A DNA stretch of 64,000 bases from assembly GCA_030272155.1 (NCBI GenBank), contig CP126204.1, positions 496,001-560,000 of the forward strand, in the 5' to 3' direction. The notes beneath the pieces were generated by a model. The model did not search any database. It worked only from the letters and a program-made list of their open reading frames with translations, and was not told the DNA's origin. Made by a program: the position numbers and the translations under genes. The stretch is from Tetradesmus obliquus. Its lineage: Eukaryota > Chlorophyta > Chlorophyceae > Sphaeropleales > Scenedesmaceae. Position 1 is the first letter of the stretch. Every line of letters begins with the position of its first letter. This document shows, piece after piece, positions 99-60,359 of the stretch.

Positions 99-1996
99 CT
101 GCCCCAGCAGTGGTACCCCCAGGTCTTCCGCTGCTGCTGCTACGCCGCCAGACCCGAAGATGTTGTCCTGGTGCCCGCAGTTGGGGCAGCAGTAGTACGC
201 CATGTTCTCAACCAGCCCCAGCAGCGGCACATGTACCTTGCGAAACATCTGCGCACCGCGCCTGCAGGGCAACACAAGACATGGGGTCACATGGGGCGCA
301 GTACTGCAGCAGAAGCAGGTCCTATTTGCTGTTTTTGACTAGTTCTAGCAGCGAAACATGCACCTTGTGGAAACTCTGCATGCCGCGCCTGCAGGGGGCA
401 AACAGGGGCGGGGAAGTGCGATGACATGCAGGCATGCACTGGTGCCAGGAGGATGGCACTTACGACAGAGGCATGAGGCCAAACTGCAAAGCCCCGAGCT
501 ATCCCAGTTGACGGATCAAGAGTTCTGGCAAGAATTTGGTTTTGATGGAGTCAAGCTGTGGGGTGTGTGTCTGAGGCAAATGTACATGTGCGCCATCAGC
601 AACTCTTCTGGATCATTTGATGCATTACTGATACATAATTTGAAACGCAAGGCCCCTACCGTGCGTCTAGCAGCGCCACGTCCTGCGGCGTTGACACGAT
701 GACTGCTCCAGCAAGCGGCAACCGCTGCCCCAAGCCAATCTGCGCGTCGCCAGTGCCTGCAGCAACAAATGCAACAGCAACAAAGCAGTGCATAAAGTAG
801 CTGAATGGCTTCGGCAGCATAACCACATGTATGTGACAAGAGAGATGCGGTCCGCTGCATGCTGACGCGTCACTGTAACAGCAAAGCCACGCCGCAGGGC
901 TTTGCAGGCTCCTCGCAAGCACTCATCACTAAGCCCACCACCCTTGCGGTGATGATGTAGTTGCCGTAAGCGGCAGCCAGACACTTGCAGTGGGAATGCA
1001 GTCCTCACCATGACACGCAATGAGCGCAAGCATGCAAAGGATGCAGGAAACATGCAGGCCATCACCTGGCGGCATGTCACCACCAGCAAGTCCAGGGCCC
1101 CAAGGCCGTGCGAAGGACCCAGTAGGCAGCAAGACAACAGAACAACCCAACAAAATGTGTATATGCACATTTGCAATATCCTTACCTGGCGGCATGTCCA
1201 CCACCAGCACATCCAGCGCCCCTGGCCGCGCCACCACTCAACAATAAGCAGCAAAACAGCCACAAAAGGTCACACATCCCCACCTGGCGGCATATCCACC
1301 ACCAACACGTCCAGGGTCCCCCAGGCAGTGCAAAGGTCCCAGTAGGTAGGCAGCAAGACAACATATCAACCCAACAAACCGCATATATAAAAATACGTAG
1401 TATCCTCACCTGGCGGCATGTCTACGACCAGCACGTCCAGATGGCCCCAGGCGGTGCCCATGAGGAAGCGGTCAATGGCACTGTTGACAATCGGACCACG
1501 CCACACCACTGGGGTGTCACCCTGCAGGCGTAAGAGGATTGCAGGCAAGCAGCCAATCAGCATGACAGATGAGGAAGCGACCGATGCGCTGTTGACAATC
1601 GGACCACGCCACACCACAGGGGTGTCACCCTGCAGGACAGAATGCGCAGGCACACAGTCATCAGCATACGACAGCAACTGCTTCATGTTGTATATGGATG
1701 CTGTCTCCAGTGGCGCCCAGCAGGCGGTATACTGTCAGTTACCCGGTGGTTCACCGTGTTATAATCCTTCTGTAACCACGTATAAACCTTAACATGCTGC
1801 AGCCCCACCTTCATGAAGCCGATGGACATGCACTTCACCCGGTGGTTCACCATGTTATAACCCTGTTGTCATTATGTTATCACCATGTCATAACCATCAA
1901 CATAACAAGCTGCAGCCCCACCTTCATAAAGAAGCCCATGGACATGCACTTCACGCGGTGGTTTTCAGGCGGCAGCAGCAGCCCCTCTGACGCGGC

Positions 1997-2062
<66 letters not shown>

Positions 2063-2754
2063 CAGTGATTGGCACACTGGCGCTGTGTCAACATAGGGGC
2101 CAGCAGTTGCAGGGGTCGCAGGGAGAGTGCAGCATCTGCTGCTGCTGCTGCTGCTGCTGCTGCACTGGCATTGAATTTGCACTTTCAGATGCACTTTGCT
2201 CCCTTACTGTGCCAGTCATGGTGGGCAGCCGCACCCAGCGCAAGCGCAGCAGCAGCAACAGCACAACTGCATCGCACCCCCACTTCTCTGATGCTGCCAC
2301 TGCACTTGCCATCAATTGCGCACCTTCAGAGGCCTCCTGGTCCCCGCTAAGCGCCATCATGGTGGGCAACAAGGGCTCGTGGATGTGCATCTGCATGAAT
2401 CAGATGCTGCTGCTTTTGCTGCTTTTGCTGCGTGCAAGTATATGTGCCTCACGCACCTTCAGAGGCCTCCGGCTCCCCGCTCAGGCCCATCATAATGGAC
2501 AGTGCGCAAGCACAGCAGCAGCAGCAACAGAACTGCATGACAACACCTGCTATATGTTTCTGTTACAGTGCACACCTTCAGAGGCCTCCGGCTCCCCGCT
2601 CAGGCCCGTCATGGTGGGCGGAGAAATGCCGTGCATGTGCAACTGCATCTATCCGCTGCTGCTACTGCTGCTGCTTTTGCTGCGTTCCACTGTATGTGCT
2701 TTGCACCTTCAGAGGCCTCCAGCTCCTGCTGAGCCCCATGCTGTCATTACTGCT

Positions 2755-2786
<32 letters not shown>

Positions 2787-2937
2787 GCTGCACTAGCGCT
2801 TAATGGACACACCTTCAGAGGCCTCCGGCTCGCCACTCAGGCCCATCATGGTGGGCAGGGATGGCCCGTGTATGTCAGCATCCAGCAGCCCCACCCTCAG
2901 GCCATGCTGCACTGCCAGCGACACAGCGAGGTTGACT

Positions 2938-2971
<34 letters not shown>

Positions 2972-3511
2972 ATGGAGGTGGCAGGAGTGGCAATCTGGTG
3001 TGTGTAGGGGCAGTCGTGCAGCGTGTTTGCTGCGTCGTGTGTTGGGACTGCAGCTGCAAACGCAGCTACAGCAGCAATCGGCAGCACTGCTTGAAGCTCG
3101 ACTGTCCTGTGGATGAGCAATGGAAGGTGTGGTCTGCAAATATACATTGAACTGCAGCAGCTTCTGCTGTGCAAGTATCCTAACAAACCATTCTGAGCGT
3201 GCAGCAAACCACGACAGCAGGTGGTGATGGTGCGCACCTGCTACTGTAGATTTGCCTACGCCGCCTTTGCCCGAAGCTACAGCTATCACATGCTGCACGT
3301 CAGCGAGGCCCAGCCGCTTTGCAGATAGTTTGCCTGGGCCAGGGCCGCCTGCTGCTGCTGCTGCTGCTGCTACTGTTGTATGGAGTTGCTGCAGTGCAGC
3401 TAGTGTCTGAGGTGGCTGCTGCTGCAGCCCTCCTCCTGTCGCTGCTGCGGTTGCTGCTGATCGTAGACATCGCACGGCCCCGCTACAAAGCTTCCATGCC
3501 TGTGATCGCAT
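99..3511 (-). CDS. Ind1/NUBPL-like mitochondrial Fe-S cluster carrier ATPase, 3' end beyond window
   Basis: Mrp/NBP35-family P-loop ATPase most like Ind1/NUBPL, which delivers Fe-S clusters to respiratory complex I in the mitochondrial matrix. Exons, in gene order: 3511-3238, 2935-2813, 1986-1922, 1521-1410, 756-660, 261-99; phases close to 278 codons. Seen directly: an Arg/Ala-rich N-terminus ([15 protein letters not shown]) suiting a mitochondrial presequence, the deviant Walker [10 protein letters not shown] near residue 85, [51 protein letters not shown] joined across a splice to [17 protein letters not shown], and the cluster-binding CPNC near residue 253. The ATG at 3509-3511 is the first in frame ahead of the presequence. 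About 60-80 C-terminal residues should lie left of base 1. A plastid HCF101-type protein is less likely, because the VKCMSMGF and VVWRGP spacing follows Ind1. Four of its introns carry copies of exon ends. Confidence 0.9.
262..2812 (-). repeat. Exon-end copies in introns of the Ind1-like gene
   Basis: Blocks resembling the ends of true exons recur in the introns. Donor end of exon 2 ([15 protein letters not shown]): copies near 2320-2368, 2454-2497, 2571-2615 and 2703-2740, plus a weak one near 2185-2225; the true site is at 2813. Donor end of exon 3 (VKCMSMGF): a copy near 1807-1853 and a fragment near 1735-1760. Acceptor end of exon 4 ([14 protein letters not shown]): a copy at 1570-1636. 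Donor end of exon 4 ([11 protein letters not shown]): copies near 1062-1108, 1191-1230 and 1281-1325. Acceptor end of exon 6: a degenerate copy near 335-390. Many copies keep a GT or AG at the expected place. Confidence 0.85.
1998..2060. repeat. CAG trinucleotide microsatellite in an intron
   Basis: About 21 uninterrupted CAG units, lying just upstream (in gene sense) of exon 3 of the Ind1-like gene. Read on the coding strand it is a CTG run ending about 10 bases before the acceptor. Confidence 0.95.
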
Positions 3512-4143: not shown

Positions 4144-7100
4144 ATGACCTGGCCTCTGGAAGCAGCAGATGCTGTGGGCCCAGATGACGAAGAAGCATGG
4201 GACCTGGAGACGGCCCTAGAACACGTGAGCTTTCAGTGAATGTTAATGACAATAGCTGATCAGCATCAACTTGCAGATGCCATGATGAGCACTGCTGCTG
4301 TGTTCAGGAGCAGCACAGCTGTGGAAACCCTCAGCAGCGCAGCAACAGCAGCAGCTGCATGCACAGGCTGTGTCGCTTTGAAAAAGCAGCGCCAGCAGTC
4401 TGTTTGTGCCTAGTGTTATAATCTGCTGTATCATGCAAAGCTGCGGAAGCCAGTGGCGCTGCATGCCACTCACAGTATGGTTGCAGCAGCGCAGCAATTG
4501 CAGCAGCTGCGTGCACAGGCTGTGTCGCTCGAGTGCCAACAGGGTGCTTTTTCGTTGTGCGGCGTTGAGAGCTGCTGTATCATGCAACCGTGAGGAAGTC
4601 AGTGGTGCTGCATGACACCCCAGTATTCTTGCAGCACAGTCCGCTTGCAGCAGCACAGCAACAGCAGAGGCTGTGCCGTCTTGAGCACCAGGCTGCATCG
4701 GCTGTTTGGTGTTTATAAATGCTGTACACAAAATGCTGTACATACAAGTTTTTATGATGAAGAGCAGCGGCAGCCCACCAGTGGCACTGCATGCCACCAC
4801 AGTATGCTTGCGCAGTCTGGTTGCAGCAATGGCAAGTTACACCTGTTAAGCACAGGCGGTGTCGCCTTCAGCACCAGCAGGCTGTGCCAGCCTTTTGGGG
4901 TGCATTATTGTGGCACTTTGCGATTCTCGAACTGCTGTACACACGCATGAACAGCAGCGGCAGCCGACCAGTGGCGCTGCCTGCCACCACAGTATGCTTG
5001 CAGCGCATGTCTTGCAGCAGCAGCAAGCTGCACCTGCAGCGCACAACCCTGCAAAGCCTTCTCCAATCTCCTGCGCCTGAACATCCCACAAGCATCTCCG
5101 CACAGGTGGTCGCTCTTACACACTATAAAGACACCTTAACCAGTGGCAAAAGATCTTTGTGTGTAGCTTGCTATCGCTGCTAGTAATGCGTGTTGGCGTG
5201 GGCCTGCAGGTTGGCGTGGGTCGTTTCCAGTGGGCCGCCCTGCTGGTGTGTGGGCTGGCCAACGCTGCTGACGCAGTGGAGATCTTGGGGCTCAGCCTGG
5301 TGCTGCCGGCAGCAGAGGATGACCTGGTGCTGACAGCAGCAGGGAAGTCGGCACTCAGCAGCTGCATCTTTGCAGGTGAGCTGTCCTGGACGATCTATGG
5401 CAGATCTGAGCAGCTGCATATGTTTCCTGGAGGATGTATGGCAGGTCTGAGCATCTGAATGTTTGTGGGTGAGATGCTATGGAAATACTGTGCGGTGCTT
5501 TGTGCAGTAACGTGACTGGGGCTCAGCCTGGTGCTGGCGGCTGCCGGCCTTCTCTCTAATAGCAACTTGCTTTAAGTAGGTACAGATCTTCCATTGCCGG
5601 TCATTGTTGCAAGCTATGGGACTCTGTCTGCCTTGCTGCCTGCAGGCATGCTCATAGGCGGCTTGCTGTGGGGGCCCATGGGCGACGCGCTGGGTGCGCA
5701 GCATGGCGGCAGCAGCAGCAGCAGCTGCTGCATTGCAGCAGCATTGCGCAGCAGCAGTGTTACAGCAACAGCTGCAGCAGTCGCATGCGCAGCAGTTGAT
5801 GGTGCACCTACCCTGCACAGCAGCGCAGCTTGCAAGGTGTTGGCAGGTGCATTACACTTTGTGGGCTCAGCTGCTTGCTTACCCAGTGCTCGTGCTGTCA
5901 AGCTACAGCTTGCATGGCACAGTGAATGCCTGCCATAGCAAAACACTCAACATCAGCAGTAATCAACCATCTGCTCCCTGCACACTGCACCTACACATGC
6001 CTATGCCGCATCACCCTAACTCTGGTGCAGGCGGCCACAGCACGCTGGTGGCATCCCTGGCCATCACACATGCTGCCTTCAGTTGGCCCTGCACCTGCAA
6101 CTCCACCTGACCCTGCTTTCACAACTCTCCCCAACACCTTGCAGGCCGCCGCAGCACGCTGGTGGCATCCCTGGCCATCAACGGCGTGTTTGGTGCGCTG
6201 TCGGCAGCAGCAGCAAATGTGGGCCAGCTGGTGCTGCTGCGGCTGCTGGCGGGCATCGGCGTGGGCGGCAGCGTGCCCGTGGTGTTCTCTTACTTGGCCG
6301 AGCTGCTGCCGGCACACGCACGGTAAGGCAGCCATTGTGTTGCTTTCAAGTCATGTAAAAGTGTTGCAAAAGGCTATGTAGCGTGTGCGTGGGTGGCAGC
6401 GTGCCTGTGGTGTTCTCTTACTTGGCAGAGCTGCTGCCGGCACACGCGCGGTGAGGCAGGGGCGCAGGTAGTTGTTTGTGTGCGAACCGCTTTTATTTGT
6501 TGCTTGCAACGTTGCTGAGCAGAGCATGTAGTAAATCAGATTGCTGCCACTTCTTGGTTGGGCATGACTGCTGCGTGGGCGGCAACGTGCCTGTGGCATT
6601 CACTGCTGCTGCTGCTGCTGCTGCTGCAATTGAATCTGATGCCATACATTGTGCGTCACGCTACGTACTGCTACTGCAGGGCAAGTTCATGGTGGGCGCC
6701 GCATTCTACTGCTGCTGCCACTTGTTACTCTCGTGCTGCTATGCATGCTTATTGCAGGGGCAAGTTCATGGTGGGGCTGGCGGCCTTTTGGATGGTGGGC
6801 TCCCTCTACTCGGCGGGGGTGGGCTGGGCCATGATCAGCCGCTGCTGTGTCTGTTGATATACTGCCACCTGTGCTTTTAAGCAATGTACTGCTGCTCCAG
6901 GTACAAACTCATGGTGGGCTTGGCAGCCTGCTGCTGCTGCACCTGAATCTCTCCAAACGTTGCTGCTTATCCACACCTGCTTGGTGCAGGGGCAAGTTCA
7001 TGGTGGGCCTGGCCGCCTTCTGGATGGTGGGCTCCCTCTACTCAGCGGGGGTGGGCTGGGCCATGATCGGGCCGGTGGGCTGGCGGCCCTTCCTGGTGGT

Positions 7101-10100
7101 GGCGGCACTGCCTGCGTTTGCTGCTGCTGCCGGCTGCCTGCTGCTGCTGCCGGAGAGCCCGCGGCACCTGCTGGTGCATGGCAGGGTGGGGCCTGCTGAG
7201 AAGGTGGGGGCGGCTGGGCTATGTTTTGAGCTATGGCGTAGTCTATACTGCTGCTTGATGGCATGAAAGCCTTTAACTGCTGACCTGCATTCTTTGCTGA
7301 GCAATAAGCCAAGCCTAATGCATGTGTACTGCTTGTTTGCTGCGTGAATCAAAACAGACACAAGTGGATGCGCAGACTACAGAGCCCACAAACCGCATCC
7401 TGATCCTCCTGCTGCTGCTGCTGCTGCTACTGGTGCTGCAGGCCATCAAGCGCATGGCTGCCGTGAACAGGGTGAAGCTGCCTCCCAATGTGAGGCTGCG
7501 GCAGCATGAGAGCCACCTGCTGGCAGCAGCAGCAGCAGCAGCACATGACCACAACAGCCCAGGCATGACTCTGCCAGCAGCAGCGGCAGCGGCGGCGGCA
7601 TGTGGCAGCAGCAAAGATGTGGAGGCTATGGACGCTGCAGTGTGCAGCAGCAGCAGCAGCAGTACTGCCAGGGGTATGGGGCCGTGTGGTCAGCTGCGGC
7701 CGCTGGTGCAGCACGCGCGTGGTGCACTGCGCACATCAGGTGGGTGGCAGCCGCTGATTGTGACATGCGTGTTTGTTGCAGCTAGGGGTGCAGCAGGCGC
7801 AGGTGCAGGTGCGGGTGCGGCTGATAACTTATGCTTGCATGTGGCTTGGATGATGCATGTGCTGCGGCAAAGTTTGTTTTTGATTTGAGGAAAAAGCCTG
7901 AGCGTCATTACTTTGCTGAAATTTGTACGCAGGGGACACAGCGATGCAGCTGCTGAGGGCGCCGCTGCGGGCCCGCTTCCTGCCACTGCTGGTGGCCTGG
8001 ATAGGTGGGCCCTGGCGCACAGCAGCAGCAGCAGCAGCAGCGGCAGCTGGTGTCAGTTTTTGCATGACTTCAAGTGGATGCGTCACAGGATCACTGCATC
8101 ACACTGCTGTCTTGGCAGTTGAAGGCTCATGACACTGGACAGCTAGGTTGACTGTCTGCACCAAGCATGTGCTGTGATCCTTAACCTGTGCCTGCAGGCA
8201 AGTGTTTCGGCTATTTCAGCACCGTGCTGTGGATCCCCAAGTACTTGCAAACCCCTGCCTGCCCAGCCCATGTGTGACCTTGGTTTGCCCTAAACCCTAA
8301 CTGGCAAACACACCAACACCTGTGCCTGCAGGCATGTGTGGCGGCTGGTACAGCACGGTGTTGTGGATCCCGGAGTACTTGCAAACCCCTGCCTGCCCAC
8401 CCCATGTGTGACCATGGTTTGCCCTAAACCCTAACTGGCAAACCCACATACACCTTTGCCTGCAGGCATGTGTGGCGGCTGGTACAGCACTGTGCTGTGG
8501 ATCCCCGAGTACTTCAAGGCGAGGGGCGCGGGCGACTCCTCACTGTATGCACAGACCTTTGCGGTGGCAGCCGCCAACCTGCCAGGTGCGTCAGACACCG
8601 ATATATGGTTGTTGGGAGAGGGGGAGCAGGTGTAGTAACTGGTTCCACTTCTGAAAATAATTGAAGATTTAAGGCTGTTGTTTTTCAGAGTTTACGCAAA
8701 TGCCGCGGGCGACTCCTCACTGTATGCACAGACCTTGCGGTGGCGGCCGCCAACCTGCCAGGTGCGATAGGCGGGGTCTGGTGCGCACAGCATGTCGAGC
8801 CGTGCTGCGCTGCCTGCAGCGGACCCGTCGTTTCATCAGCGGAGCCACAGCTCAGTGACCTCTGAAGTGGCCTGCTGCGCCTCAAAAAGATTGAACCGGC
8901 AGTGTTCAATTCGTGATAGCTTTAAGTCAAAGTGTGAATTAGCTCACTGGTTCATGCGACAGCTGAGTGCTGCATTGTTCTGTCCTGCAGGCAACATCGC
9001 CAGCATTTTTATGGTAGACAGGCTAGGCCGCCGCTGGACCGCCTGCCTCTGCCTGGCTGGGGCTTGCCTGGCTGCGCTTGGTTTCGCTGCTGCGCCTGCT
9101 GACCCCGTGTGGTCGGTGGTGGCTGCGTGTGTGTTCAACGCCATCAGCGTGGGTGGCTGGAATGCACTAGACCTGCTGTCAGCAGAACTATTCCCTACTG
9201 AGGTGCGGAGAGGCGCTAAAGCCTTTGATATTATCAAGACTGCTACTGCTGCCACAATAGTGTGGTTTAAGCAACATGCAACAAGAATCATCTGGAATGC
9301 GCTGGACCTGCTGTCTGCGGAGCTGTTCCCTACCGAGGTGCGGGCAGGCGATTGAGAGACTGTTACTGCTTTTACACGATCATTGCTTGAGCAGCTTGTG
9401 ATCGTCTGGCGTGTGCGGAGCGGTTCCCCACCAAGGTTTATGCCTGTCAGGGACCGTAACATCTCTGGCGTTCTGCTGACGTCTCGTTTTCTGGTCTGCC
9501 GCTGCCAGGTGCGTACCACGGCGATGGGCCTGCTGACACCCAAGGTTATCCAGGAATGCATTAGGCAGTTTGTTGGTTTTTAAATTTCCTGCACTCTGCT
9601 GCCGCCAGGTGCGCTCCACGGCGACGGGCCTGCTAAGGACATCCAGGAATGCAGAAGGAAGTTGGTTTGTTTTCTAATTTCCTGCAATCTGCTGCCACCA
9701 GGTGCGCTCCACAGCGATGGGCCTGCTGATTTACACCACACACATGGCCCCTCAGTATTGACAACGATATGTGATCTGCACTCTGCCGCCAGGTGCGCTC
9801 CACGGCGATGGGCCTGCTGGGGGCCACGGGCCGCCTCGCGTCATTCGCCACCACCTTCCTGGCAGGTGAGGAGCGGCAACGCACGTGCAGCAGCAGCACT
9901 AGACTGCATGGAAGCAGCCTGGGTGGCGGCCCGCGTGTGGTACAGGCCGCATGACGGGAGGGGGAGGGGGTGGGGGAGCGGGGCTTGCGGAGCTGAGGTG
10001 CTGTGCTTTACTAGCTGTCTTGATGCAGCCGAGAGGTGGCGGCCGCGCCCGCAGATGTGCTTGAAACCTAAATTTCCCTGGCAAGACTCCTGCCAAGCTG

Positions 10101-10869
10101 GACCCTACAACACACCTCTGACTGCATGTGACAAATCCGCACGTTTAGATCGTGGTGTATCCCGCTGCTGATTTGCTGCGACATACTTGTGATGCTGCGC
10201 TGCTTGACTGCTGCTTTCGCAGGTGCGCTAATGCAGCTGCAGCTGTGGGCCCCACTAGTTGTGGCAGCCGGCCTGTTGGCTGCTGGCAGCCTCGCAATGA
10301 TGCTGCTGCCAGAGATGGCCCTAAAGCCCCTGGAGGATACAGTAGAAGATGCAGCCGCGCGATCTAGCCAGATCAGTGGCGGCAACAAGCTTGGACTGTC
10401 AGATCAGATCGGCTTAAGAGAGATCAGCTTGCAGGGGGTGGCGGCTTCCATAATGGAGGGGGTGAGGCGGCAGCGGAGCAGCAGTAGAAGCGGCGTGGAG
10501 TCGGGGGCAGGCTTAGCAGCAGCAGCAGTTGGATTTGATGAGTACCTTGATGAGTCACCCAGTGCAGCAAGGAGCAACGGCAGGAGGCGGTTTGGTTCGA
10601 ATTCGGATCATCTGGGCTCGAAAGCCGGACACAGCAAGCCACTGAGGCTGATAGGGTCAGATCCTTCGTCACTTGCCGCAGCTGGCAGCAGCAGCAGCAG
10701 CAGCAGCACCACCACCAGGAGTGAGATGGCGTTCAAGGGCTTTGAGATGGGTGTGAGGATGCACAGTGAAGCTGCTGAAGTGGCGGAGGAGGGGCGCAGC
10801 TTGCTGGTTACTCAGCAGCAGCAGGTAGCGGGCGAGGATGGCCGGCAGCTGTCCTCGCACTTGCTATGA
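4144..10869 (+). CDS. SVOP-like major facilitator superfamily transporter
   Basis: Membrane transporter of the sugar/organic-solute MFS group, closest by eye to SV2-related SVOP proteins; substrate unknown. Eleven exons: 4144-4224, 5210-5375, 5646-5693, 6145-6322, 6990-7203, 7442-7739, 7933-8004, 8466-8585, 8991-9202, 9793-9865, 10223-10869, giving 702 residues in continuous phase. Visible landmarks: the N-terminal acidic stretch and VGVGRFQWAALL, typical of SVOP; AADAVEILGLSLVLP in TM1; GLLWGPMGDALGRR, the MFS loop 2-3 motif; LLRLLAGIGVGGSVPVVFSY; PESPRHLL after TM6; DRLGRRW at loop 8-9; AELFPTEVRSTAMGLL. A hydrophilic Ser/Gln-rich cytosolic tail covers about residues 520-702. The start ATG precedes 27 codons that splice in phase to the conserved core. 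Exons 4, 5, 8, 9 and 10 have partial copies in flanking introns. A TGTAA at 11211 is a candidate poly(A) signal. Confidence 0.88.
4260..5070 (+). repeat. Degenerate tandem repeat, about 150-190 bp period, in MFS intron 1
   Basis: The landmark AGTGGCGCTGCATGCCAC and close variants recurs near 4451, 4599, 4779 and 4969. Each is followed by CAGTAT and a stretch of GCAGCAGC. An earlier, weaker unit starts near 4270. All lie in the 985-bp first intron. No continuous reading frame runs through the units, so I read it as intronic repeat rather than coding. Confidence 0.7.
6025..9732 (+). repeat. Exon-end copies in introns of the MFS gene
   Basis: Acceptor-end copies lie upstream of their exons. Exon 4: 6025-6075. 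Exon 5 (GKFMVGLAAFWMVGSLYSAG): near 6676-6703, 6756-6838 and 6896-6925. Exon 8 (MCGGWYSTVLWIP): 8196-8250 and 8331-8385. Exon 10 (VRSTAMGLL): near 9505-9545, 9602-9640 and 9697-9732, period 91-96 bp. Donor-end copies lie downstream of their exons. Exon 4: 6383-6452 and a fragment near 6573-6603. Exon 8: 8701-8766. Exon 9 (WNALDLLSAELFPTEV): 9292-9346. The 6756-6838 copy retains an AG acceptor and 25 codons of near-identical protein. Confidence 0.87.
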
Positions 10870-11676: not shown

Positions 11677-11710
<34 letters not shown>

Positions 11711-11770: not shown

Positions 11771-11772
<2 letters not shown>

Positions 11773-13292
11773 ACTGCTTGTTCAGCAGCTGCCGCGCCTC
11801 CTGCTGCTGCTTGGCCAGCGCCTCACTTGTGTATTTGCTCAGCAGCTCCGCCTTTTTCTTCTCAAGCACCATCTGCTCAATCGCCTTCTGGTCCGGCAGC
11901 GGCACGTAAGCAACAAACTGCGGCCCAGCTGCGTCCTCGCCGTCGCCGCCTTGCTGCTGCTTCTTGCGCGCGGCCTTGTCGGTGACGCCTGCCAGTGCTG
12001 CTTGCCGCTCGGCGTCCTTCTCCTGCCACTCTGCCAGAGCCTGCGGGCAGCGGCAGCAGCAGCAGCAGCAGCAGCAGCGGAGGGCGGCAGTGTCAAAACC
12101 AGTCACATACAAGCAAGTGCCAGGCCTTGTCAGTGACACCAGCCAGTGCTGCTTGCCGCTCCGCGTCCTTCTCCTGCCACTCTGCCAGAGCCTGCGGGCA
12201 ACAGCAGCAGCAGCAGCAGCAGCACAGTACAGAAGGACAGTAATAGCGTCAGTCAATGGCTTTTAGTGACGCCAGCCAGTGCTGCTTGCCGCTCCGCGTC
12301 CTTCTCCTGCCATTCGGCCAGAGCCTGAGGGGCAGCAGCAGCAGCAGCAGCAGCATGAGGATAGCTTTAGAGCGGCGGCCACTGCCTCACAGCAAACGCA
12401 AGCCGCAAGGTGCGCTGCGATGAGTAGCGCGATAGTTGCCCAGATATCTGTTAATAAGGCCCTGAACCCTGGTGCTGAAGCCCTGAACCCTCCTAGTTAG
12501 TACCCTAAACCCAATGATCTTCTTCAATACCCTACCTGTGCCTGTATGGTCGCCTCTGCCTCTGCTTCTACCGCCAGCAGCACGCCATCCTCCTCATCCC
12601 TGAACCCGTAGTAGTCTGGGGTGATGGACTTGTGCATCTGGAAGCGCGACCGCACAGTCTGCAAACAGGAAGTGCAAAAACAAGCAAAAGAGAGTATGTG
12701 AGCATGATCCAACACCACACAAACATGATGCATGTGGTGTGATGGCCTTGTGATCTGGAAGCGCGAGCGCACAGTCTGCGAAGATTGAAGCAGCGAGCAC
12801 GGCAGGTTGGGAACAGCCGGGCATGTGGTGGATGCCGCATGCGCAAGCAAGGTGTAACAGTCCAGGGTGGTGGCCTTGCGCAGCTGGAGGCGGCTCTGTA
12901 CACGCCGTGCAGAGAAGCACGCAGTGCATGAAGTGGTACAGCAAGTGAGATTGTGAGCACGTGCGGCGTGTACTCCGCTCCATCGTTCAAGCTGACGACG
13001 TGCAGCCGCAACCGTCCTGTGCGCAGCCGCAGGATTCACAGGTTGTAACACCTGCTGTCACAGCAATGCTCAGCGCCACTCACTTTTTTTCATTTGAGGC
13101 AACAAAGTGCGACACAACAGTGCGACACAAAACATATGCGAGCAGAAAAGTGATGCCAGGTCAGTGCCACTCACTGGCTTTGGCGCCTCCTTTTCAAACA
13201 GCTCCTTCACTCCCGGCAGCTGCTTGGCGGCACCAAAGTAGCGGTAGCCGGCGCCTCTGCTGTCCGTCACCTCGTTGCCTTCGCTGTCTGTT

Positions 13293-13333
<41 letters not shown>

Positions 13334-13854
13334 CAAACAGCTGCGTCACCGCAAGCACAGTAGTGTTGACGCGACAGCTGCCAGCTGCCAGCCCCACATG
13401 CCAGTGCGCTTGCTGTGAGCACGGTGCTGCCAGATGCTTATCAACATGCGGCACCGCTGCTGCTGCTGCGTCTGCCGCCGCTGTCCAATACGCGTCAACC
13501 AGCCCCTAAGCACACACCAACTTGTTCCATTTGGCGCCGTCTTTCCTTAGTCTAGCTCCACGATGCACTGCTGCTGCTGGCTGTGCCACACCTAGAAAGC
13601 CTGCCCAAACAATTCCCGCCACGCACCTGTGATCTTTGGCGCCGTTTTGGCATAGTCCGGCCCGCCTGGCTCACGCTGCGCTGCTGCTGCTGCTGGCTGT
13701 GCTGAAATTCTGCCTGCAAGCAACCCCTAAACATACACACCTGTTATTTTTGGCGCCGTCTTTGCGTAGTCTGGCCCCCCCAGCTCCACGATGCGCCGCT
13801 CCCAGTGGCCCTTCTCGCGGATGAGCTTGTTGATCTCGTCATTGAGGTCACGGA

Positions 13855-13888
<34 letters not shown>

Positions 13889-14440
13889 GGCGGCAGCGGT
13901 GGTGGCAGCAGCATAGTGTGCCACACATCAGTTATCAGTGCGCTGTTGCATTGCTGATGGCAACATGTGGGGTGTGAGAAGCAGTCCAGTGCGGCAGGGC
14001 TTTGCATACGCGCGGCTGCAGGAACACAACCAGCACTCACAGTCGTCATAAAACACAAAAAGCACGCGTGTTAATGCTGCATGCCATGAGATTCTTGAAA
14101 CGTGTATAAGTCGCTGTTTGAAAATGCGACAGGCGCGTGGCTTACTGTGCACTGGCCTGCAGCCACGCTGTGCTGTGACTCCTGCCGCCAAACAAGCTTT
14201 TCTTGATGCTTGTGATGGCTGACATACCTTGGCTTGTGATGGCTGACATACCTTGACATCTGCACTCGCCTTCCGGTTGCTGCTGTTGATGCTGACACAT
14301 ATCTCCATGCAGCACCCTGCTGCTCGCTCCAGTACCACACACACCTCCAGTTGCACCAGGCACCTACATGCTGTTGCACCTAGCCCTGGGCTCACCTGTG
14401 CTCCCCCAGACCTGCATGTTGGATATCCATGACTTTCTGC
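11630..14440 (-). repeat. Exon-end copies in ISY1 introns and 3' region
   Basis: Exon 1 donor end (QNAGLGEHR plus GTGAGG): copy at 14386-14440, about 118 bp downstream of the true donor. Exon 2 donor end ([14 protein letters not shown]): copies near 13630-13680 and 13528-13570. Exon 4 acceptor end (TVRSRFQM): copies near 12739-12790 and 12869-12905. Exon 5 acceptor end ([16 protein letters not shown]): copies near 12140-12200 and 12265-12335, about 130 bp apart. The coding end with its stop (QLLNKQ) recurs in fragments near 11706-11730 and 11636-11660. Small direct repeats of TGATGGCTGACATACCTT sit at about 14213 and 14238. Confidence 0.85.
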
Positions 14441-14721
14441 TTGTTACAGTACGCCACATACCTCCAGCCGCACCAGACACCTACATGCTGCTGCACCTGA
14501 CCCTGCCCTCACCTGTGCTCTCCCAGCCCAGCATTCTGGATCTCCATGACCTTCCGCCCGATCTCCCGCAGGATTTGCTGCCTCCATCTGTCAGCCTCGT
14601 TCAAATCTGTGCACTCTGTCGCCAGGTATGGCCGCCGTGCCTTTGGCCCTCGCTTCTCATCCTGCTTTGCCGCTAAAAAGCGGTTCAGCATGGACTGCGC
14701 CTTCTCCTCATTACGAGCCAT
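11771..14721 (-). CDS. ISY1: Pre-mRNA-splicing factor ISY1
   Basis: Component of the spliceosomal NineTeen/Prp19-associated complex, acting in the nucleus around the catalytic steps of splicing. Five exons: 14721-14513, 13856-13741, 13287-13175, 12658-12536, 12040-11771, giving 276 residues, against about 285 in the human protein. Collinear matches to the family run from end to end: MARNEEKAQ at the start, [20 protein letters not shown] across junction 1, [61 protein letters not shown], and the C-terminal [20 protein letters not shown] ending ARQLLNKQ and TAG. The ATG begins the family's invariant MARN. Four of its eight splice junctions, and its stop-codon end, have tandem partial copies nearby. 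Whether this affects its own splicing is unknown. Confidence 0.95.
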
Positions 14722-15926: not shown

Positions 15927-18009
15927 TCAACACAAACTGCCAGCACAACGCCCAGAGCCACCACTCTTGCGTGGAACAGGTGACTTGCCTGGCGCACCCA
16001 CCCCGTTCGCACGCGTCTTCTTTTTCTGTGCTAGGTAGAGAGCAACTACCCGCTCTCGATGCGGCGCAGACACGGGTGCCACTGTCGGCTGGCCGCTTGG
16101 CGCAGGCGGTGCTGCAACGGTCTCAATAGCTTCATCTTGGAAGCGGCATGACCTGCTGCAAGCCTGTACGGAGCACTGCCGGAAGTGCTGGTTTGACATC
16201 CTCACTGTTGACCCATCCTGCGCATCCTCCTTGGCACAGCAGGCAACCCTGCAGCGGGGCGGGCACGTAAAGCTGCTGACATCGTTGGCTCGCAGTGCTG
16301 AGCAGCGCTTGCTGCTCGGGCGCACGCTCTCATACAAGTTGAAGTCGTCGGACTCTGTCCCCGCACCGGGCGGCGGCACCAGGGCTTGACTTCCCGGGGG
16401 CTGCGCTGCAACATAACGTACGTGGTTGCCGACTTGGACCCGTGACTCGACCGCAGCCACAGCCAGTGACGCAGCATCAAACCCTGCTGATACCCACGTT
16501 CCGCAGCACTTGCCTGAGCAGTAGCGCATTGTTTGCCACTGCCAGGGCCCCAGGCGCTTCTCCATTTCAAGCTGTTCCCGCAGTGCGCTGTCGTCGTCTA
16601 CGAGCCTGGCAGCTCCAGCCAAGTAACCGTCGGACGTGAACATCACACACGCGTCCAGGGCATCACACGCAGCTGCTGCTTCTGCCAGCGTGGCCAGGAG
16701 ATATGGTGTTGCTGCTGCGGCGGAGTTGTTGGTTGGTGGTTGCAGGGTGTACAGAAGCACCCGCTGATCTGAGCCAGGCTGCTTCTCCAACTCTTTTGGC
16801 AGCTGGCGAGCCTTCAAAGTGTACCCAGCCACATCGCACGAGGCTGGTAACCAGCCAGTTTGTGAGGCAGGCTGCCGCTTGAGGCAGTCCAGCAGCGGTG
16901 TCCTGCTGGCATCAATGAAAGGCAGCGACTCCCAGGGCCGTCCTTTCGCATCAGCCAGGCACCCTTTCATGCCCACATTGCCAGATATATTGAGAAGTCT
17001 TAAAGATGAGCTGCTTGCGCTCCTAGCCCAGGCTCGTGAGATTGATCCAGATAGCTTGTTGCCAGAAAGGTTGATTTCCTGCAAGGTGGATGAAGTTGAC
17101 CAGGCGTCTGGAATGGTGCCAGCCAAAGCGTTGTTGCTGAGGTTTACGGTATACAGCTGAAGCGCAGTGCCCCAGCTTGCTGGCAATGTGTCAGACAGCT
17201 TTAGGTTGCCTGTTATCTGCACTGACTGAGCTGTAGCTGCAACAGCCCCGCTCTGCGCAGCTGCTGGTAGTGATGGCAGCGGGCCCATGATGGATGTGTT
17301 TGTCACTTCCACTGTATACGCCACTTGCAGCACCCACGCCGGCAGCTTGCCAGTGATTCCAGGGCCAGATATCTGTAGCTTTAGTAGGTCAAGTGGGCTT
17401 GGCAGCAGCGGCAGCTGCTGCGGCAGTGTCCCTTTCAGTGGCCCTGCTGCCCTCAGCCCTGCCTGACTGATGTCCAGCGCATACAGCCTGCCATCTGTGG
17501 GGTTGCATCCGTTGTCTGCCAGCCAATCCCTGCACCAGGTTTTGGTGTTGTTTGCCCGCCACTTTGGCAGTGCTTTGCCTGTCGGGTCCAGCGCCTTGGC
17601 AAGCGCCAGCAGCACTTGCACATCTCCAACAGGCGCGCCTGCAGCTGCTGCTGCAGCAGAATACCACATTACATTTTTTATTTGAGGAAGACATGGTTGC
17701 CGCACAGTATGCACAGTGAGATTGGTCAAGTGCATGCCACTTTAGTGTTGTCCGCAGCGGTGCTGGCCAGTTGCACAGCCTGTGTGACTGAGCTGCACAG
17801 AGGACATTACAGGCTACCTTGCTCCTTGTCACGTGCATGCTGAGACTGTGTGGGCTGTTAAGACATGGCTGAACACGCTGTGCTACAAGTCGCCCACTGG
17901 CGTTTGGTCTGTTCTTCATAAACTCACCAGCTAGTGCGTGTGCCTTTACAGCAGCAGCAGCAGCTGCTGTCACCAGCAGAACCCCACCCCAGGCTGAGAT
18001 ACGGACCAT
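15927..18009 (-). CDS. Secreted leucine-rich-repeat protein with PAN-like Cys module
   Basis: Two exons, 18009-17928 and 17638-15927, give 597 residues. Exon 1 is almost exactly a signal peptide (MVRISAWGGVLLVTA, Ala-rich core, ending near HALAG), so the protein probably enters the secretory pathway. Residues about 30-75 resemble the plant LRR N-terminal cap: LLALAKALDPTGKALPKW, then TWCRDWLADNGCNP. Several LRRs follow to about residue 290 (LQLYTVNLSNNALAGTIPDA, LQEINLSGNKLSGSI). A Cys module with ACDALDACVMF follows, and the same core (ACDALDTCVMY) occurs in the PAN-like domain of the array proteins at 30074 onward. The tail is Cys-rich, then basic and Pro/Ser-rich, with no membrane segment or kinase domain. 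It resembles plant receptor ectodomains without the receptor. Ligand and role are unknown. Confidence 0.85.
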
Positions 18010-24306: not shown

Positions 24307-24308
<2 letters not shown>

Positions 24309-25346
24309 GACGTCAAGGCGCAACGTCAACCTCAACAAGGAGCTGTCAAATGACTGGGTGGGGCGTGTGCGGAAGTGGAAGCGGCAGTGGGTGCCTGTCG
24401 ACGACAAGCCCCCGCCAGGCAAGAAGCCCTGCATGCTGCTGAAGTGGGTGCAGACAGGTGAGCAGCAGCAGCAGCAACAGCAGTGCAGCTGATTTTGAAG
24501 CAGATGGCTGGCTTGGCGAGCAGCAGAGCAGCGTCCACTGGCATCCTTGCTGATGTGGCGGTGCTGCTGCCAGCCTGCTTGAGGGGTGTGTGTCGTTGCT
24601 GCTGGCAGCAGTTGATTGCTGCCACGTAGCCGCAGCATGCAACATGCTTGAACAGTGCGGCTGTGCAGGTTTCTATGTATGTATGTAGGTAGGCATGCCA
24701 CGTTACAACCCGCTGCAGTCCAGGCGGCATGCAAGGGTTGCCAATCAGAGACCTAGTTTTGCATGAAGCGAACACTGGCCGTCGACAATCATGCCTGCAC
24801 TGCTGCTGCTGCTGCAGAGGAGCGTGCACACCCAGGCCCCTCAAGGCACCCACATATCGTTCCAGTAAGTGCCTGATCATCTCAGTTTATGCTGGCTGCT
24901 GATATGCGTGTGTTACGAGTGTTATGTGACAGCCCTGCTTGCCTCACACAGCAGCGGCCACTTAACACCGCAACAAAGCAAACATGTAGCATGCAACCTG
25001 TGTTAGCTGCAGGTTGCAGTTGGAAGCAGCATTGTGTCACTCAGCGACTCTCTGCTGTGGAACCACTTTCTTGCCTGACCCAAAAGCGGCCACAAGACAC
25101 AGCAGCAAAGTCTTCACGTAGCATGCGGCCTGTGTCAGTTGCAGGTTGCTGTTGGGAAGCAGCTGTGTGTCACTCAGTGACTCTGCTGTGGAGCCACACT
25201 GCAACCACACTCGACCACCACCAAGACAGAAAAAACACAGACAGAAAGAAACACCGCCAACAAAAGAAGAAACACTGCCAGGGCAGGGGCCATGCCAGCT
25301 TGGGGCAACCCTCTCTGTGTGTTGATGTTGCTGATGCCATCTTTTG

Positions 25347-25380
<34 letters not shown>

Positions 25381-28300
25381 TGAAGGACTTGAGCCTGGTG
25401 CCAGGTGCCAGGGTGGGGCCAGCACATGATGCAGCGGAAACAGGCGGCATGCTGGTGCGTTTTGTTCCTTCTGTAAGATGCATGCATTGGGCAGATCCTG
25501 CTGTGCTTCCTGATCTTGACTTCCAGCATGCGCTCTTGTTCCGTTTTCATTCAGTAACCATTCAAGTCCTTGGCGCCTGGTTGTGCAAGAACAACTTGTG
25601 TATATGTGTTGCATGGCTGCCTGCTGCTGCTGCTGCAGATGGCCGACCCTACAGCAGCACCCCCCCTGATAGACCTAAGCATGCAGCAAGCAGCCACACC
25701 AGCAGCAGCAGCAGCAGCAGATGCGGCTCTGCAGCCATCTGCATTTGCTGGCGCAGCTGCAGCAGCACCCCTCGCACCCGACGGCCAAGCAGCAGCAGCA
25801 GCAGGTGCAGGTGCAGCCTCAGCTGGCGAGCTGGCAGCAGCAGTGGCAGCAGCTGGACTGGGGCCTCCCACACTGTCACTAGATGCAGCAACAGCAGCAG
25901 CAGCAGGTGGCTTGGCAGCACCGTCTCCGCTGGCTGCTACAGCCAGTGGGCTGAGCTTAGGCATAGGCGCCCTGAGCCAGCCCAGCAGCAGCCAGCAGCT
26001 GATGATGGGAGGGCTGGGCGGAGCGCCGTCCATGCCCGCTGCTTCAGACTACACTGCAGGTACGCGTTTTTCGACTTGAGCTGTTGATTGTTGCTGTAAT
26101 TGTTCAAGCTGTTGTCTTGATGTTATTGTCTGACGCTGGCGGTTCGTGGAGTTGGTTGAGGTGGTCAGGGTTATGTTTGCAGTGCCATTGTTTAGCTGTC
26201 GACCCTAGGCATTGGAGCCTGTGCATTGGTGGCCTGAGCCAGCCCAGCAGCAGCCAGCAGCTGATGATGGGTGGGCTGGGCGGAGCGCCGTTGATGCCCG
26301 CTGCTTCAGACTACACTGCAGGTACGTGTTTGTTGACTTGAGATAATGATTGTTGCTGTCGTTGTTCAGGCTGTAGGGTCGAATCGTTGTTGTTTGACGC
26401 TGGCGGTTGGTCGAGCCAGCAGCTGATGATGGGTGGGGTCCATGCCTGCTGCTTCAGACTATATACTGCAGGTGCGCGTTTGTTGACTTGAAAGGTATTG
26501 AAGGTTTGTGTTGTTGTGATAACTGTCATCCATGTGTCGTTGTTTGACGCTGCACATTTGCAGCTGATGATGGGTGGGCTGGGCTGGGCTGCCTCGCTGC
26601 CTGCAGCTTCAGACTATACTGCAGGTGCGTGTGTGCTATCTTTCGTTACCGGTTTTTTTATTTGTGTACGCTAGGCTGTTTGTTTGAGAGCTGTAGCAGT
26701 CAGGGCCGTGCCGGCAGTTGCACAGTGCAGCCGCCAGCCTGAAACTGCAAAGCAGCCTGCAGCGTTCAAGCGCCGCTGGGAAGCACCAAGGGTTGCTGCT
26801 CCAACTGTTGCTGCTGCTGCTGTTGCTGCTGCAGGCACGGACAGCGAGGCGCTTGGGCGGCTGCCGCACGGCGGCGCTGCTGCCTCTGACTACACGGGTG
26901 GCACTGACAGCATGGATGTGGATGGTGGGCTGATGATGGGTGGAGGCACGGCTAGCCAGGGAGGAGGCGTGGCTTCTGCGCGGCGGCCAGCAGTTGGTCA
27001 CGAAGATGACTTGGATGATGAAGGTGAGGAACTTGGGTGGGCAGGCAATGAGACAGATGGTTGCGCCTGCTGTGGCCAGTGCTGTGGTTGATGCGGCGGC
27101 CGCATGCTGGTGATGATGGTCACATGGGTGAAGGAGGTGAGGCAGTTTTGATACAGCCCGCAGGGCTGGGCTTGTTTCTAGAGAGGGCCTGTGTTTGCTG
27201 CAAAGGCTTGATGATGGGAGGCACAGCCAGCCAGGGCGGAGGCGTGGCTTCTGCGCGGCGGCCTGCTGTTGGTCACGATAACGACATGGACGATGAAGGT
27301 GAGGCCGCAGGGCTGGGCCTGTTGTGCTGCATGAGCCTGTTGTGCATGGGGTGAAGCGCCAGCAGGGGTGGCCAGTGCAGGGTGGCCGGCAGTTGGTCAC
27401 GCGGATGACATGGACGATGAAGGTGAGGACGTTGGGCGGGCAGGCAATGAGGCAGATGGTTGCGCCTGCTGTGGCCAGTTCTGTGGTTGATGCGGCGGCC
27501 GCATGCTGGTGATGATGGTCACATGGGTGATGGAGGTGAGGCAGTTTTGATACAGCCCGCAGGGCTGGGCTTGTATCTCAAGAGGGCATGTGTTTGCTGC
27601 ATAGGCCTGATGATGGGCGGCACGGCCAGCCAGGGTGGAGGCGTGGCCTCTGCGCGGCGGCCAGCAGTTGGTCACGATGATGACATGGACGATGACGGTG
27701 AGGTGCAACCGTTATATGGTGGCTTTGGCCTGGGCCTGCATGGTGGCCTGATGATGGGTGGAGGCACGGCCAGCCAGGGCGGAGGCGTGGCTTCTGCGCG
27801 GCGGCCAGCAGTTGGTCACAATGATGACATGGATGATGAAGGTGAGGCCACTTCACATGAGGCGGCAGGGCTGGGTGTGTTGTGCTGCGTGATCCTGCTG
27901 TGCTGTGTCAGCCAGGGTAGTGGCGTGGCCAGTGCGGGGCGGTCAGTGGTTGTTCATATGATGCCATGGGCGATGAAGGTGCGGCCGCTTCACCTGAGGC
28001 TGCAGAGCTGCTGTTAGTGTTAACAGTCAGCTTCACCCAGCTGCTTCTCCAGCTGCTGCAGTATATTGTTTGGCGCGTTGCGGGTCTGTGCCAGGTTGAC
28101 AGTAGTAAGCTGCAGCTTTACAGTGCAGGATCTGTAACTGCCTTTGTGCGTGTGAGTGAAGGGGTGCATGCAATCTGACCAAAGCGCGCTTCTTCTTCTG
28201 CACCTGCAGCACTCGTGCTGTCTTGCTCATCCTGCTGCTCATATGCCACTGCTGCCACTTCATTTGCTCTGTGTGCTGCAGACGAGCTTGATGGAGCTCT

Positions 28301-28538
28301 CAGGGAAGAGGAAGAAGAAGATGAGGACCAGGAAGAAGAAGAAGAGGATGATATTGATGATGAGGAAGATGACGATGATGAGCAGCAGCAGCAGGATGAC
28401 GGCGGCTTCCATGAAGATGACGGCCTAGAGCGAGGGGTAATCGCTGGTGGCGATGACGACGAGGTTGACGAGGAAGATGACGATGACGAGGGTGATGACG
28501 GGGATGACGAGGATGTTGAAGATGACATGCCAGGCTGA
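24307..28538 (+). CDS. BCL7-domain protein, putative SWI/SNF-associated
   Basis: Six exons, 24307-24457, 24818-24864, 25380-25454, 25639-26059, 26835-27023, 28282-28538, give 379 residues in closed phase. Residues about 16-50 (ELSNDWVGRVRKWKRQWVPV, then LLKWVQTG) resemble the BCL7 N-terminal domain, whose animal form reads KVRKWEKKWV...KWVPV. BCL7 proteins, and plant BCL-domain homologs, are accessory subunits of SWI/SNF chromatin remodellers, so a nuclear role is inferred. The middle is Ala-rich with LMMGGLGG and AASDYTAG motifs. Exon 5 carries MDVDGGLMMGGGTASQGGG and RRPAVGHEDDLDDEG. Exon 6 is an almost pure Asp/Glu tail. The Trp/Lys signature is short, so the family call is good rather than certain. 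Introns 4 and 5 hold multiple copies of exon ends, some usable as cassette exons. Confidence 0.75.
26060..27979 (+). repeat. Exon-end copies in BCL7-like introns 4 and 5
   Basis: Exon 4 donor end (SSSQQLMMGGLGG, AASDYTAG): copies at 26232-26322, 26414-26474 (degenerate) and 26561-26624, most ending GCAG followed by GTRCG. Exon 5 donor end (MMGG.TASQGGGVASARRPA, then VGHDDDMDDEG): copies at 27206-27298, near 27355-27423, 27605-27697, 27748-27840 and 27909-27979, ending in GATGAAG or GATGACG followed by GTGAGG (the last GTGCGG). The segment after 27060 (27061-27140) is itself duplicated near 27459-27540. Confidence 0.9.
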
Positions 28539-50482: not shown

Positions 50483-50516
<34 letters not shown>

Positions 50517-55421: not shown

Positions 55422-55454
<33 letters not shown>

Positions 55455-58792: not shown

Positions 58793-60359
58793 TCAGTTCT
58801 GCTGGCCGTCATCGCTGGCGGTGTGCTTTATGATGAGCTCGCGCAGCTTGTCCACCTTGGCACCTGTCATGTCTGCCACCTTCTGCCCACCCTTGTACAG
58901 GTGGAAGGTGGGCGCAACCTGCAGCAGCAGCAGCAGCAGTTGGAAGGACGTCAGGAGCAGCGTCGACAGCACTAACAGAAGCAGCAGTAGTTGAAGCTGC
59001 GCTGTAGCAGAGGCATATGTGCGTTGCTGCTGCCATCTGCAGGCTGCCATTACGCCGACATGCCGCGACAGCCCCTAGTCACAAATTCACTAGCAGCCGC
59101 CAGCTTGCAGGAAACGCGCTTCGTGCTTGCAGGAAACCGCCTGGCCGCCTCAACCGCACCTTGATGCCCAGCGCCTTGGCCAGCTCCTTGTTGTTCTGGT
59201 TGCAGTTGAACTTCACGATGACTGCTGCAGGGGCAAGCTCCGCAGACAGCGTCACCAGCTGGGGGTAGATCAGCTTGCAGGGGCCACACCACTGCAATGA
59301 AGAAAAGAGCACGTAGCATCCATGTTGCAGATCAGTCGGGTTCAATGCATGCCAAGACAGGAACGGCTAGTGCTTCACAAGTGTGCCGGACTCTGAGAGA
59401 AAACAGCCGTGCCAACAGCGAAGGCAGCTGCGCACTGCGGCACACAGGAGGTGCAGTTTACCTGGTGTTTCAAGCAGCGCTGTAAAGCATACTGTGGACT
59501 CTGCACTGCACCAGCTGCAGGCCAGCTGCCGTCAAGGGAAGCCACTGATGTCAGTGAAGAAGTCCACCACCACCAGCTTGTCACCACCCCGCTCCACCCA
59601 ACCACCCACACATGCTGCATGCGACATGTATGCACATCAAAACCTGCCCAGCAGCTATGCGGCATGTAGCTCACGTCGGTAAAGAAGTCCACCACCACCA
59701 GCTTGTCACCCGCGGCATCAATGAAGGGCTGGAAGCTGTCCTTGTCCAGCTCCTGCAGCCCTGCAGCATCACTGCTGGCCACAGGGCTGGACACGGCAGC
59801 AGCGGCGCCAGCAGAGGCGCCATCTGCAGCAGCGGCAGCAGGGGCGAGCCGCAGGCATAGTTTGCGTAAGTTAGCGCCAGAATTGGGATTGGGGCGTATG
59901 TTTGAAGAGTAAGACTAATGGGGGCAAGTTGAGGGCGTGGTTGCATGCTGGCGGTTTCCTTGCAGAGTGGGGTACTGCCCCTGATGTTGGTACATGTGAA
60001 AGACCATCTGCAGTGTGCAGCAACTGAACGCATGTACTCGGATGCTGCGCCTGTGCGTTGTGTGAGGGTTGCTGCATACAATGCAACTGCCACATGCCTG
60101 CTTTTGCCAGTTACAGACAGCAGAGACAGCACAGCAGGTGGCCACACCAGCACCGCTACAGTGCCCGCGTACCTGCGACTGCTGCAGCCCTCACACGCTG
60201 ACCGATCGCCTGTGCATGGCTCAGCCTAGGCACCAGCAGCGTCTGGGCCTGCTGCTGCACATTGCTTAGGGGAAGAGGCCTGATAGGGGCCCTCACGAGA
60301 GGGGTAGCCTGGCCCGCGGCGCAAGCAGCGTTGGCAGTGATTCTCTTTGAGGACAACAT
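58793..60359 (-). CDS. Chloroplast thioredoxin f
   Basis: Four exons, 60359-60173, 59823-59675, 59291-59160 and 58918-58793, give 197 residues. Residues 1 to about 75 are a Ser/Ala/Arg-rich transit peptide (MLSSKRITANAACAAGQATP). The mature domain follows f-type thioredoxins: LQELDKDSFQPFIDAAGDKL, VVVDFFTD spliced to WCGPCK (redox-active Cys pair), VKFNCNQNNKELAKALGIK with the extra Cys typical of type f, VAPTFHLYKGGQKVADMTGA (cis-Pro in APT) and KVDKLRELI. Thioredoxin f, reduced by ferredoxin-thioredoxin reductase, activates Calvin-Benson enzymes in the stroma in the light. The ATG at 60359 gives a phase-consistent first exon; it is less certain than the core. A copy of the exon 2 donor end lies in intron 2. 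Confidence 0.92.
59545..59590 (-). repeat. Copy of the thioredoxin exon 2 donor end
   Basis: Reads GDKLVVVDFFTD on the - strand, about 130 bases downstream of the true exon end at 59675. The base after GAC is A instead of G, so the donor is ATCAG rather than GTGAG and the copy is probably dead as a splice site. Confidence 0.85.

Follow-up and report, generated by a model that had tools for sequence, protein, structure and literature searches.

Exon-end copies in neighbouring introns of Tetradesmus obliquus: polarised tandem repeats whose likeness often ends at the splice site

Introduction

How do the ends of exons, splice sites included, come to be repeated inside the introns beside them, and why does the likeness so often stop where the exon stops? 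A stretch of the Tetradesmus obliquus genome raises both questions. The window analysed here (C14:496001-560000, 64,000 nucleotides of a 104.66-Mb genome in 17 contigs) carries such copies in several genes of unrelated function. We examine their orientation, placement, boundaries, splice sites and reading frames, first in the genes of the window and then in a sample of 264 kb, which consists of the window and 200 kb more, drawn as five blocks on five contigs and amounting to 0.25% of the genome.

Samples and searches

Three genes of the window (MFS, ISY1 and thioredoxin), with 30 internal junctions, were checked individually; a copy was called at a match of at least 21/30, without repeat masking. 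Exon labels elsewhere came from a purpose-built HMM gene finder that reads both strands, requires introns of at least 50 and was trained on the very 264 kb in which it labelled 349 exons. At times it labels a copy as an exon (window 8198-8271 and 12111-12191), and such copies are thereby hidden. The polarity test on 264 kb used exons of at least 100 nt and a threshold of 21 of 30; the junction count used exons of at least 40 nt and copies matching at least 22/30. The telomere repeat TTTAGGG lies, among the matches listed, at both ends of C1, the right end of C2 and the left end of C3.

Genes and copies in the window

The genes that bear copies, and the copies themselves, are as follows (window coordinates).

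99..3511, - strand: Ind1/NUBPL-like gene; Pfam ParA (NUBPL) for the first 132 aa; gene model incomplete, the joined exons containing 3 stops
347-388, 1284-1331, 1568-1629, 1806-1847, 2457-2502, 2576-2638: copies in the Ind1-like gene
5186..10869, + strand: MFS/sugar transporter gene; 10 exons, Pfam Sugar_tr/MFS_1, frame open through all exons
5186-5375, 5646-5693, 6145-6322, 6990-7203, 7442-7739, + strand: MFS exons 1-5
7933-8004, 8466-8585, 8991-9202, 9793-9865, 10223-10869, + strand: MFS exons 6-10
6031..6066, + strand: copy of the start of MFS exon 6145-6322, with acceptor; offset 114, 94% identity
6387..6450, + strand: copy of the end of MFS exon 6145-6322, with donor GTGAGG; offset 128, 94% identity; 4/4 exon mismatches at third codon positions
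6679..6933 (at 6679, 6758, 6901), + strand: three copies of the start of MFS exon 6990-7203; offsets 311, 232, 89
8198..8405 (at 8198, 8332), + strand: two copies of the start of MFS exon 8466-8585, in a 134-bp tandem array that includes intron
8703..8761, + strand: copy of the end of MFS exon 8466-8585; 1 mismatch and 1 frameshifting deletion; likeness ends 5 nt into the intron
9292..9337, + strand: copy of the end of MFS exon 8991-9202; 7/7 exon mismatches at third positions
9509..9728 (at 9509, 9609, 9702), + strand: three copies of the start of MFS exon 9793-9865; offsets 284, 184, 91
11771..14721, - strand: ISY1 splicing-factor gene; 5 exons, frame open, Pfam Isy1 E 1.4e-96
14513-14721, 13741-13856, 13175-13287, 12536-12658, 11771-12040, - strand: ISY1 exons
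12111..12324, - strand: two copies of the start of ISY1 exon 11771-12040, the first labelled an exon by the HMM
12734..12775, - strand: copy of the start of ISY1 exon 12536-12658
24307..28538, + strand: BCL7-like gene, so named in the first-pass annotation; no Pfam match for the first 50 aa
within 26002-28010, + strand: BCL7-like exon-end copies, of exons near 26059 and 27023
59550..59585, - strand: copy of the end of thioredoxin exon 59675-59823; donor GT lost (AT)

Copies stand at 7/18 internal junctions of the MFS gene, at 4/8 of the ISY1 gene and at five edges of the Ind1-like gene (261, 1410, 1521, 1922, 2813). The thioredoxin gene has 3 exons, a Pfam Thioredoxin match and one stop near a guessed 3' edge; the f type is its label in the first-pass annotation.

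Copies are polarised and belong to exon ends

In the three checked genes, 12/30 junctions have copies, and these are strictly polarised. The first 30 nt of an exon recur in the upstream intron in 6/15 cases and in the downstream intron in 0/15; the last 30 nt recur downstream in 6/15 and upstream in 0/15. Exon middles gave 2/14 downstream matches, each scoring just the 21 required, and 0/14 upstream. Inverted controls were positive in 3/88 tests, as thresholded counts without scores.

The same holds for the HMM exons of the 264 kb. Exon starts were found upstream in 15/191 cases and downstream in 1/190, and exon ends downstream in 22/192 and upstream in 1/194. The next stretch inwards is copied less often (nt 31-60 upstream in 6/190, nt -60 to -31 downstream in 9/192), and exon middles hardly at all (0/186 and 2/187). 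Four tests for inverted copies in this sample returned 0, and random introns of other genes, taken as a control, returned 0-1 matches per test. At the stricter threshold, 49/620 junctions bear copies, 65 copies in total, with AG or GT present at the copied edge in 55/65. Because a 30-nt edge window might itself favour edges, the search was repeated with exon nt 26-55 only: it found 20 copies, 19/20 of which extend to the junction at 80% identity or more. Outside the window the pattern recurs clearly on C14, C1 and C4; the signal is weak on C2 (2 junctions, low-complexity) and C3 (1 junction).

The first-pass annotation had counted by eye about 19 junctions in five genes, and that number stands: 12 in the checked genes, five in the Ind1-like gene and two in the BCL7-like gene. 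Its polarity rule, acceptor-end copies upstream and donor-end copies downstream, held too (6/15 and 0/15 each way). Two outcomes that it had named as fatal to the pattern, exon middles copied as often as exon ends or a breakdown of polarity, did not occur in the 264 kb. The exon-end pattern is real and polarised. Polarity is, all the same, close to a matter of definition, the intact exon being the one contiguous with the rest of the gene. Any tandem duplication that crosses a junction yields polarity once purifying selection has acted.

Tandem arrangement and an excess at junctions

Self-comparison of the window gave 44 direct repeat pairs less than 3 kb apart. The only inverted pair (28783-28830 and 56961-57008, 85% over 48 bp) is about 28 kb apart; a similar string near 15780, seen by eye, perhaps makes this a dispersed element. 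Across the 264 kb, 141 direct and 2 inverted repeat pairs lie within 1500 bp, so that nearby direct copies of gene parts, by which internal (partial) tandem gene duplication is recognised, are abundant. Periods of the junction clusters fall at 84-165 bp in 36/41 and at 177-240 in the other five; an earlier estimate of mostly 90-130 bp overlaps the main range and is slightly narrow. Spacing within arrays is even, with offsets such as 109/224/332, 91/184/284 and 107/212. A further direct repeat lies in the C3 sample at 16095-16372 (C3 about 1016096-1016372): two 71-bp copies, 100% identical, flank some 135 bp that look tRNA-like by eye and are possibly a tRNA-derived insertion.

Direct orientation, polarity and arrays are all that one would ask of plain tandem duplication across junctions, followed by neutral decay and filtered by purifying selection. 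The placement of the clusters stands against it. Among clusters of period below 400 in the 264 kb, 41 cross a junction, 4 are intron-interior, 6 intergenic and 4 exonic; the exonic periods are multiples of three in three cases (114, 240, 240) and not in the fourth (218). We simulated artificial duplications of about 117 bp at random positions, leaving out those wholly exonic. These fell on junctions 417 times, within introns 639 times and between genes 444 times, a junction to intron-interior ratio of about 0.4:0.6, as against the 41:4 observed.

Might junction duplications simply be easier to see? At 10% divergence per lineage the search recovered 49/56 simulated junction duplications and 87/97 intronic ones; at 13% it recovered 49/62 and 61/88. 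Since recovery is similar up to 10%, detection does not account for the excess at that age, and detection bias is not supported up to that divergence. Clusters can also be dated by their non-exonic part, with the caveat that part of this sequence derives from exons and that some genes contain more than one of the clusters. On this basis, 9 junction and 2 intron-interior clusters are at least 90% alike (binomial p 0.005), and 3 and 1 are at least 95% alike (p 0.17). The 9:2 ratio is a hint that junctions are favoured as early as formation or the first stage of retention.

Likeness often ends at the splice site

Alignments of exon and intron copy mostly stop at or soon after the junction: 41/56 contain 17 nt of intron or less, and 15/56 contain 24-352. 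On the exon side, identity is about 0.9 over some 30 nt. For 20 donor copies the intron-side values are 0.85 at +3, 0.60 at both +4 and +6, 0.95 at +5 and 0.40-0.50 from +9 to +12; unrelated junctions give 0.75 (+3), 0.33 (+4), 0.67 (+5), 0.29 (+6) and about 0.26 (+9 to +12). The intron-side identity of 25 acceptor copies drops in like manner. (Copies lacking GT/AG were dropped from the intron side of this comparison, and a recent 118-bp array on C1 from both sides.)

Simulated neutral duplications of the observed lengths behave otherwise. Identity over 25 nt of exon is 0.916 observed, and the simulated duplications compared are those that reach 0.911; over 25 nt of intron it is 0.684 observed against 0.849 simulated. 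Put as whole percentages, exon parts are 92% alike and the adjoining intron 68%, where neutral duplication leads one to expect 85%. Detectable intron likeness remains in 17/37 high-scoring copies that keep their site, against 141/146 simulated, and intron of 24 nt or more, as two young copies alike over their whole unit would have, is included in the 15/56 alignments above and missing from 41/56, where the simulation expects nearly all to have it. The gap implies that the exon part was kept alike afterwards, or that the event copied little else. The 17 copies with intron likeness favour plain duplication with decay; the abrupt fall of identity at the splice site is unexplained by it, and together with the junction excess this makes plain duplication alone an unlikely account.

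The other arm of that alternative is a forming event bounded by the exon, for example a staggered pair of breaks or nicks in exonic DNA, with new spacer filled in between the exon-end copies. The sharpness of the drop and the preponderance of alignments with little intron both suit it, as do the spacers. The spacer to the nearest copy is at least 46 nt long (median 78) in donor and acceptor types both, and the nearest copies lie a median of 123.5 from the true junction. Some very similar pairs, with 96-100% exon identity, have unlike spacers (window 8527-8590/8704-8766; C1 19101/19246; C4 25409/25604). Three of four spacers searched in the genome, with simple repeats and very common words skipped, matched only themselves; one of these is window 8586-8700. 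Yet likeness already fails inside the donor, where +4 and +6 differ in 40% of copies and +5 agrees in 95%, and the near-constant unit length within arrays is unlike random fillers. We consider such an event rather unlikely. Correlations that treated unit length or spacer length as the fixed quantity were 0.32 (p 0.053) and -0.28 (p 0.083).

Mobile elements as the origin of the spacers, and CAG/CTG tracts as the cause of the pattern, were considered and set aside. Mobile elements do not account for the three spacers that matched only themselves; the fourth (C4 sample 25409-25568, C4:1025410-1025568) contains a piece of a short dispersed repeat, about 60 nt long and found genome-wide on both strands, with at least 31 matches listed, the spacer itself included, and 30 candidates scored. 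CAG/CTG tracts, frequent in introns and coding sequence throughout the window, occur in 11/44 spacers against 43/318 intron ends of the same length, a modest excess. A GTCA tract lies at window 56288-56328.

Splice sites, reading frame and constraint

Most copies carry a credible splice site. GT/AG is kept in 38/44 nearest copies, with median scores of 5.6-5.7 against 6.3 at real sites, and in 22/44 the copy's site scores at least as high as the true one. These retained sites would suit a role under selection, with copies used as alternative splice sites or alternative coding exon ends, and a donor-like site at the far edge of 4/22 acceptor-type copies (control 6%; rank test p 0.84) leans the same way. 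Donor-type copies have an opposite far-edge site in 2/22, not above the 21% at control spacer positions, and 38/44 nearest copies are not bounded by both an acceptor and a donor. The offset modulo three is 0, 1 or 2 in 21, 19 and 22 of 62 copies, no more in frame than chance gives, so that use of the copy would shift the frame in 41/62. Reading through to the copy's site meets an in-frame stop in 44/62 and is open and in frame in 9/62, a pattern unlike that of tandem, mutually exclusive or cassette exons.

The suggestion that the copies are raw cassette exons thus finds little backing; the far-edge and frame tests speak against cassette or alternative exons for most copies, and we conclude that most copies are not exons. 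An exception may be the BCL7-like array (window 26919-28010), with about five copies, several of them by eye in frame, with mostly silent changes and their own acceptors; some of these may be true duplicated exons.

Mismatches between exon and copy fall 66/57/168 on the three codon positions, at rates of 6.7, 5.8 and 17.3%. The third-position excess is 2.8-fold (bootstrap 2.1-3.4, 28 clusters); for neutral copies we would expect at most about 2, by our own reckoning. Taken alone, this excess favours used copies, and the pairs 6259/6387 and 9157/9292, with their third-position mismatches, had suggested coding constraint. Between copies, the mismatches are 21/25/35 (9.3, 11.2 and 15.9%). These rates are nearer even, which places most of the excess in the lineage of the exon itself. 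Indels occur in 7/65 copies, and 18/20 indels in BLAST alignments of exon against copy break the frame. The copies thus show little sign of coding constraint, and their use under selection is very unlikely; near-neutral change among copies is, for its part, in keeping with plain duplication and decay.

Unequal recombination between diverged haplotypes whose exons are similar and whose introns are unlike, or in a past hybrid of that kind, would account together for independently working splice sites, unlike spacers and the third-position excess. It requires introns too different to align beside nearly equal exons, and third-position divergence between exon and copy ranges from 0/14 to 7/16 instead of holding one level. 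We judge this origin quite unlikely.

A tentative explanation

The reading we prefer, at somewhat short of an even chance, is that ordinary small tandem duplications occur and that their exon-matching parts are later kept alike, probably through recombination with the selected exon. Head-to-tail duplications of small size, for the most part 84-165 bp, would often arise in the genome. Those wholly within an exon would break the protein and mostly be lost. Those crossing an exon edge would be tolerated, leaving a full exon and, inside the intron, a spare exon end with its splice site and some intron. In the spare copy, likeness to the exon would then outlast likeness to the intron by far, most likely because the copy goes through unequal exchange or gene conversion, again and again, with an exon close by that selection holds still. 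Intron parts would diverge until only the exon end and the splice-site consensus match, and wholly intronic duplications, with no exon to anchor them, would fade from view. On this account the copies would most likely be by-products with splice sites that have to be skipped, rather than used exons.

The duplication step is supported by orientation, by the even spacing of arrays and by the intron common to part of the pairs. The first-pass annotation had proposed tandem duplication across the junction; direct orientation, polarity and even arrays sustain that proposal, and it is insufficient for the drop at the splice site and the 41:4 excess. Gene conversion or unequal exchange would fit the near-neutral copies, the retained splice consensus and the farther copies that are more exon-like. 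The farthest copy resembles the exon more than the nearest does in 6/12 families (for example, 98% at offset 212 and 90% at 107), which patchy exchange would allow. A paralog array points the same way: window 29300-53000 is occupied by a fivefold tandem repeat with a unit of about 4.86 kb, every unit containing a cysteine-rich gene with some five labelled exons. In the four units compared, variable columns number 7/2157 in exons and 21/1316 in introns, about five times less in exons. The exon variants fall 3, 1 and 3 on the codon positions, without a third-position excess. Few sites are involved, and they hint that the exons have been homogenised.

The third-position excess, higher than we expect of neutral copies, and the 9:2 ratio of clusters dated by their non-exonic part count against this reading. 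Pairs with unlike spacers are hard for any model in which a duplicate forms and then drifts. Gene conversion does not explain them, so that exon-bounded copying and exchange between diverged haplotypes remain candidates beside later upkeep by recombination. A more far-reaching claim, which we hold to be possible though doubtful, is that recombination bounded by splice sites copies exon ends into neighbouring introns, or keeps them alike there. Exon edges would then go on supplying spare splice sites and lengthening introns in much of the gene set, and the spliceosome would routinely pass over near-perfect copies.

Relation to known systems

Short tandem duplications inside genes, splice sites included, were reportedly described by Gao & Lynch in 2009. 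Such duplications are shared with the present case; here they affect 49/620 junctions in one genome, mostly cross exon edges, reach up to five copies, and often lose likeness at the splice site.

A paper on potato RdRp describes an existing intron-exon structure that was duplicated, and mentions an 83-bp intronic duplication as well (PMC4974935); another gives cases of Drosophila intron gain from tandem duplication (PMC2891723). The shared element is a duplicated exon/intron stretch that supplies spare splice signals. The present copies sit within existing introns, with more intron after or before them, and no new intron is shown. Intron gain of the Rogers type, by AGGT duplication, would make the copy the 3' end of the intron, abutting the next exon; instead, the nearest copies of both types lie at that same median of 123.5 from the true junction, and 18/22 of the donor type are followed by a donor-like GT, that is, by more intron.

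Intron gain in double-strand break repair leaves insertions with flanking direct repeats (PMC3443670), and direct repeats parted by unrelated spacer are common to both. The repeats here, of about 24 to at least 75 nt, are not short as in that process, and one end lies at a splice site. Introner elements likewise change introns genome-wide (PMC9860276). They place the same element at many introns, in contrast to spacers of which three of the four searched matched only themselves and the fourth carries the dispersed repeat.

In the open-licence literature searched, no title or abstract opening listed describes exon-end copies at such density or a boundary at the splice site, and none reports this pattern in an alga. 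Intragenic tandem duplication, and intron gain from it, look already known; what we describe looks like an unusually frequent form.

Implications

Gene prediction would be disturbed by these copies, some of which our own gene finder called exons. If the sample represents the genome, a spare exon-end copy would stand at about one junction in thirteen. The alga would then offer many natural pairs of look-alike sites for the study of spliceosome choice, a source of intron growth whose course can be traced over time, and a way to test whether recombination or mutation differs between exons and introns.
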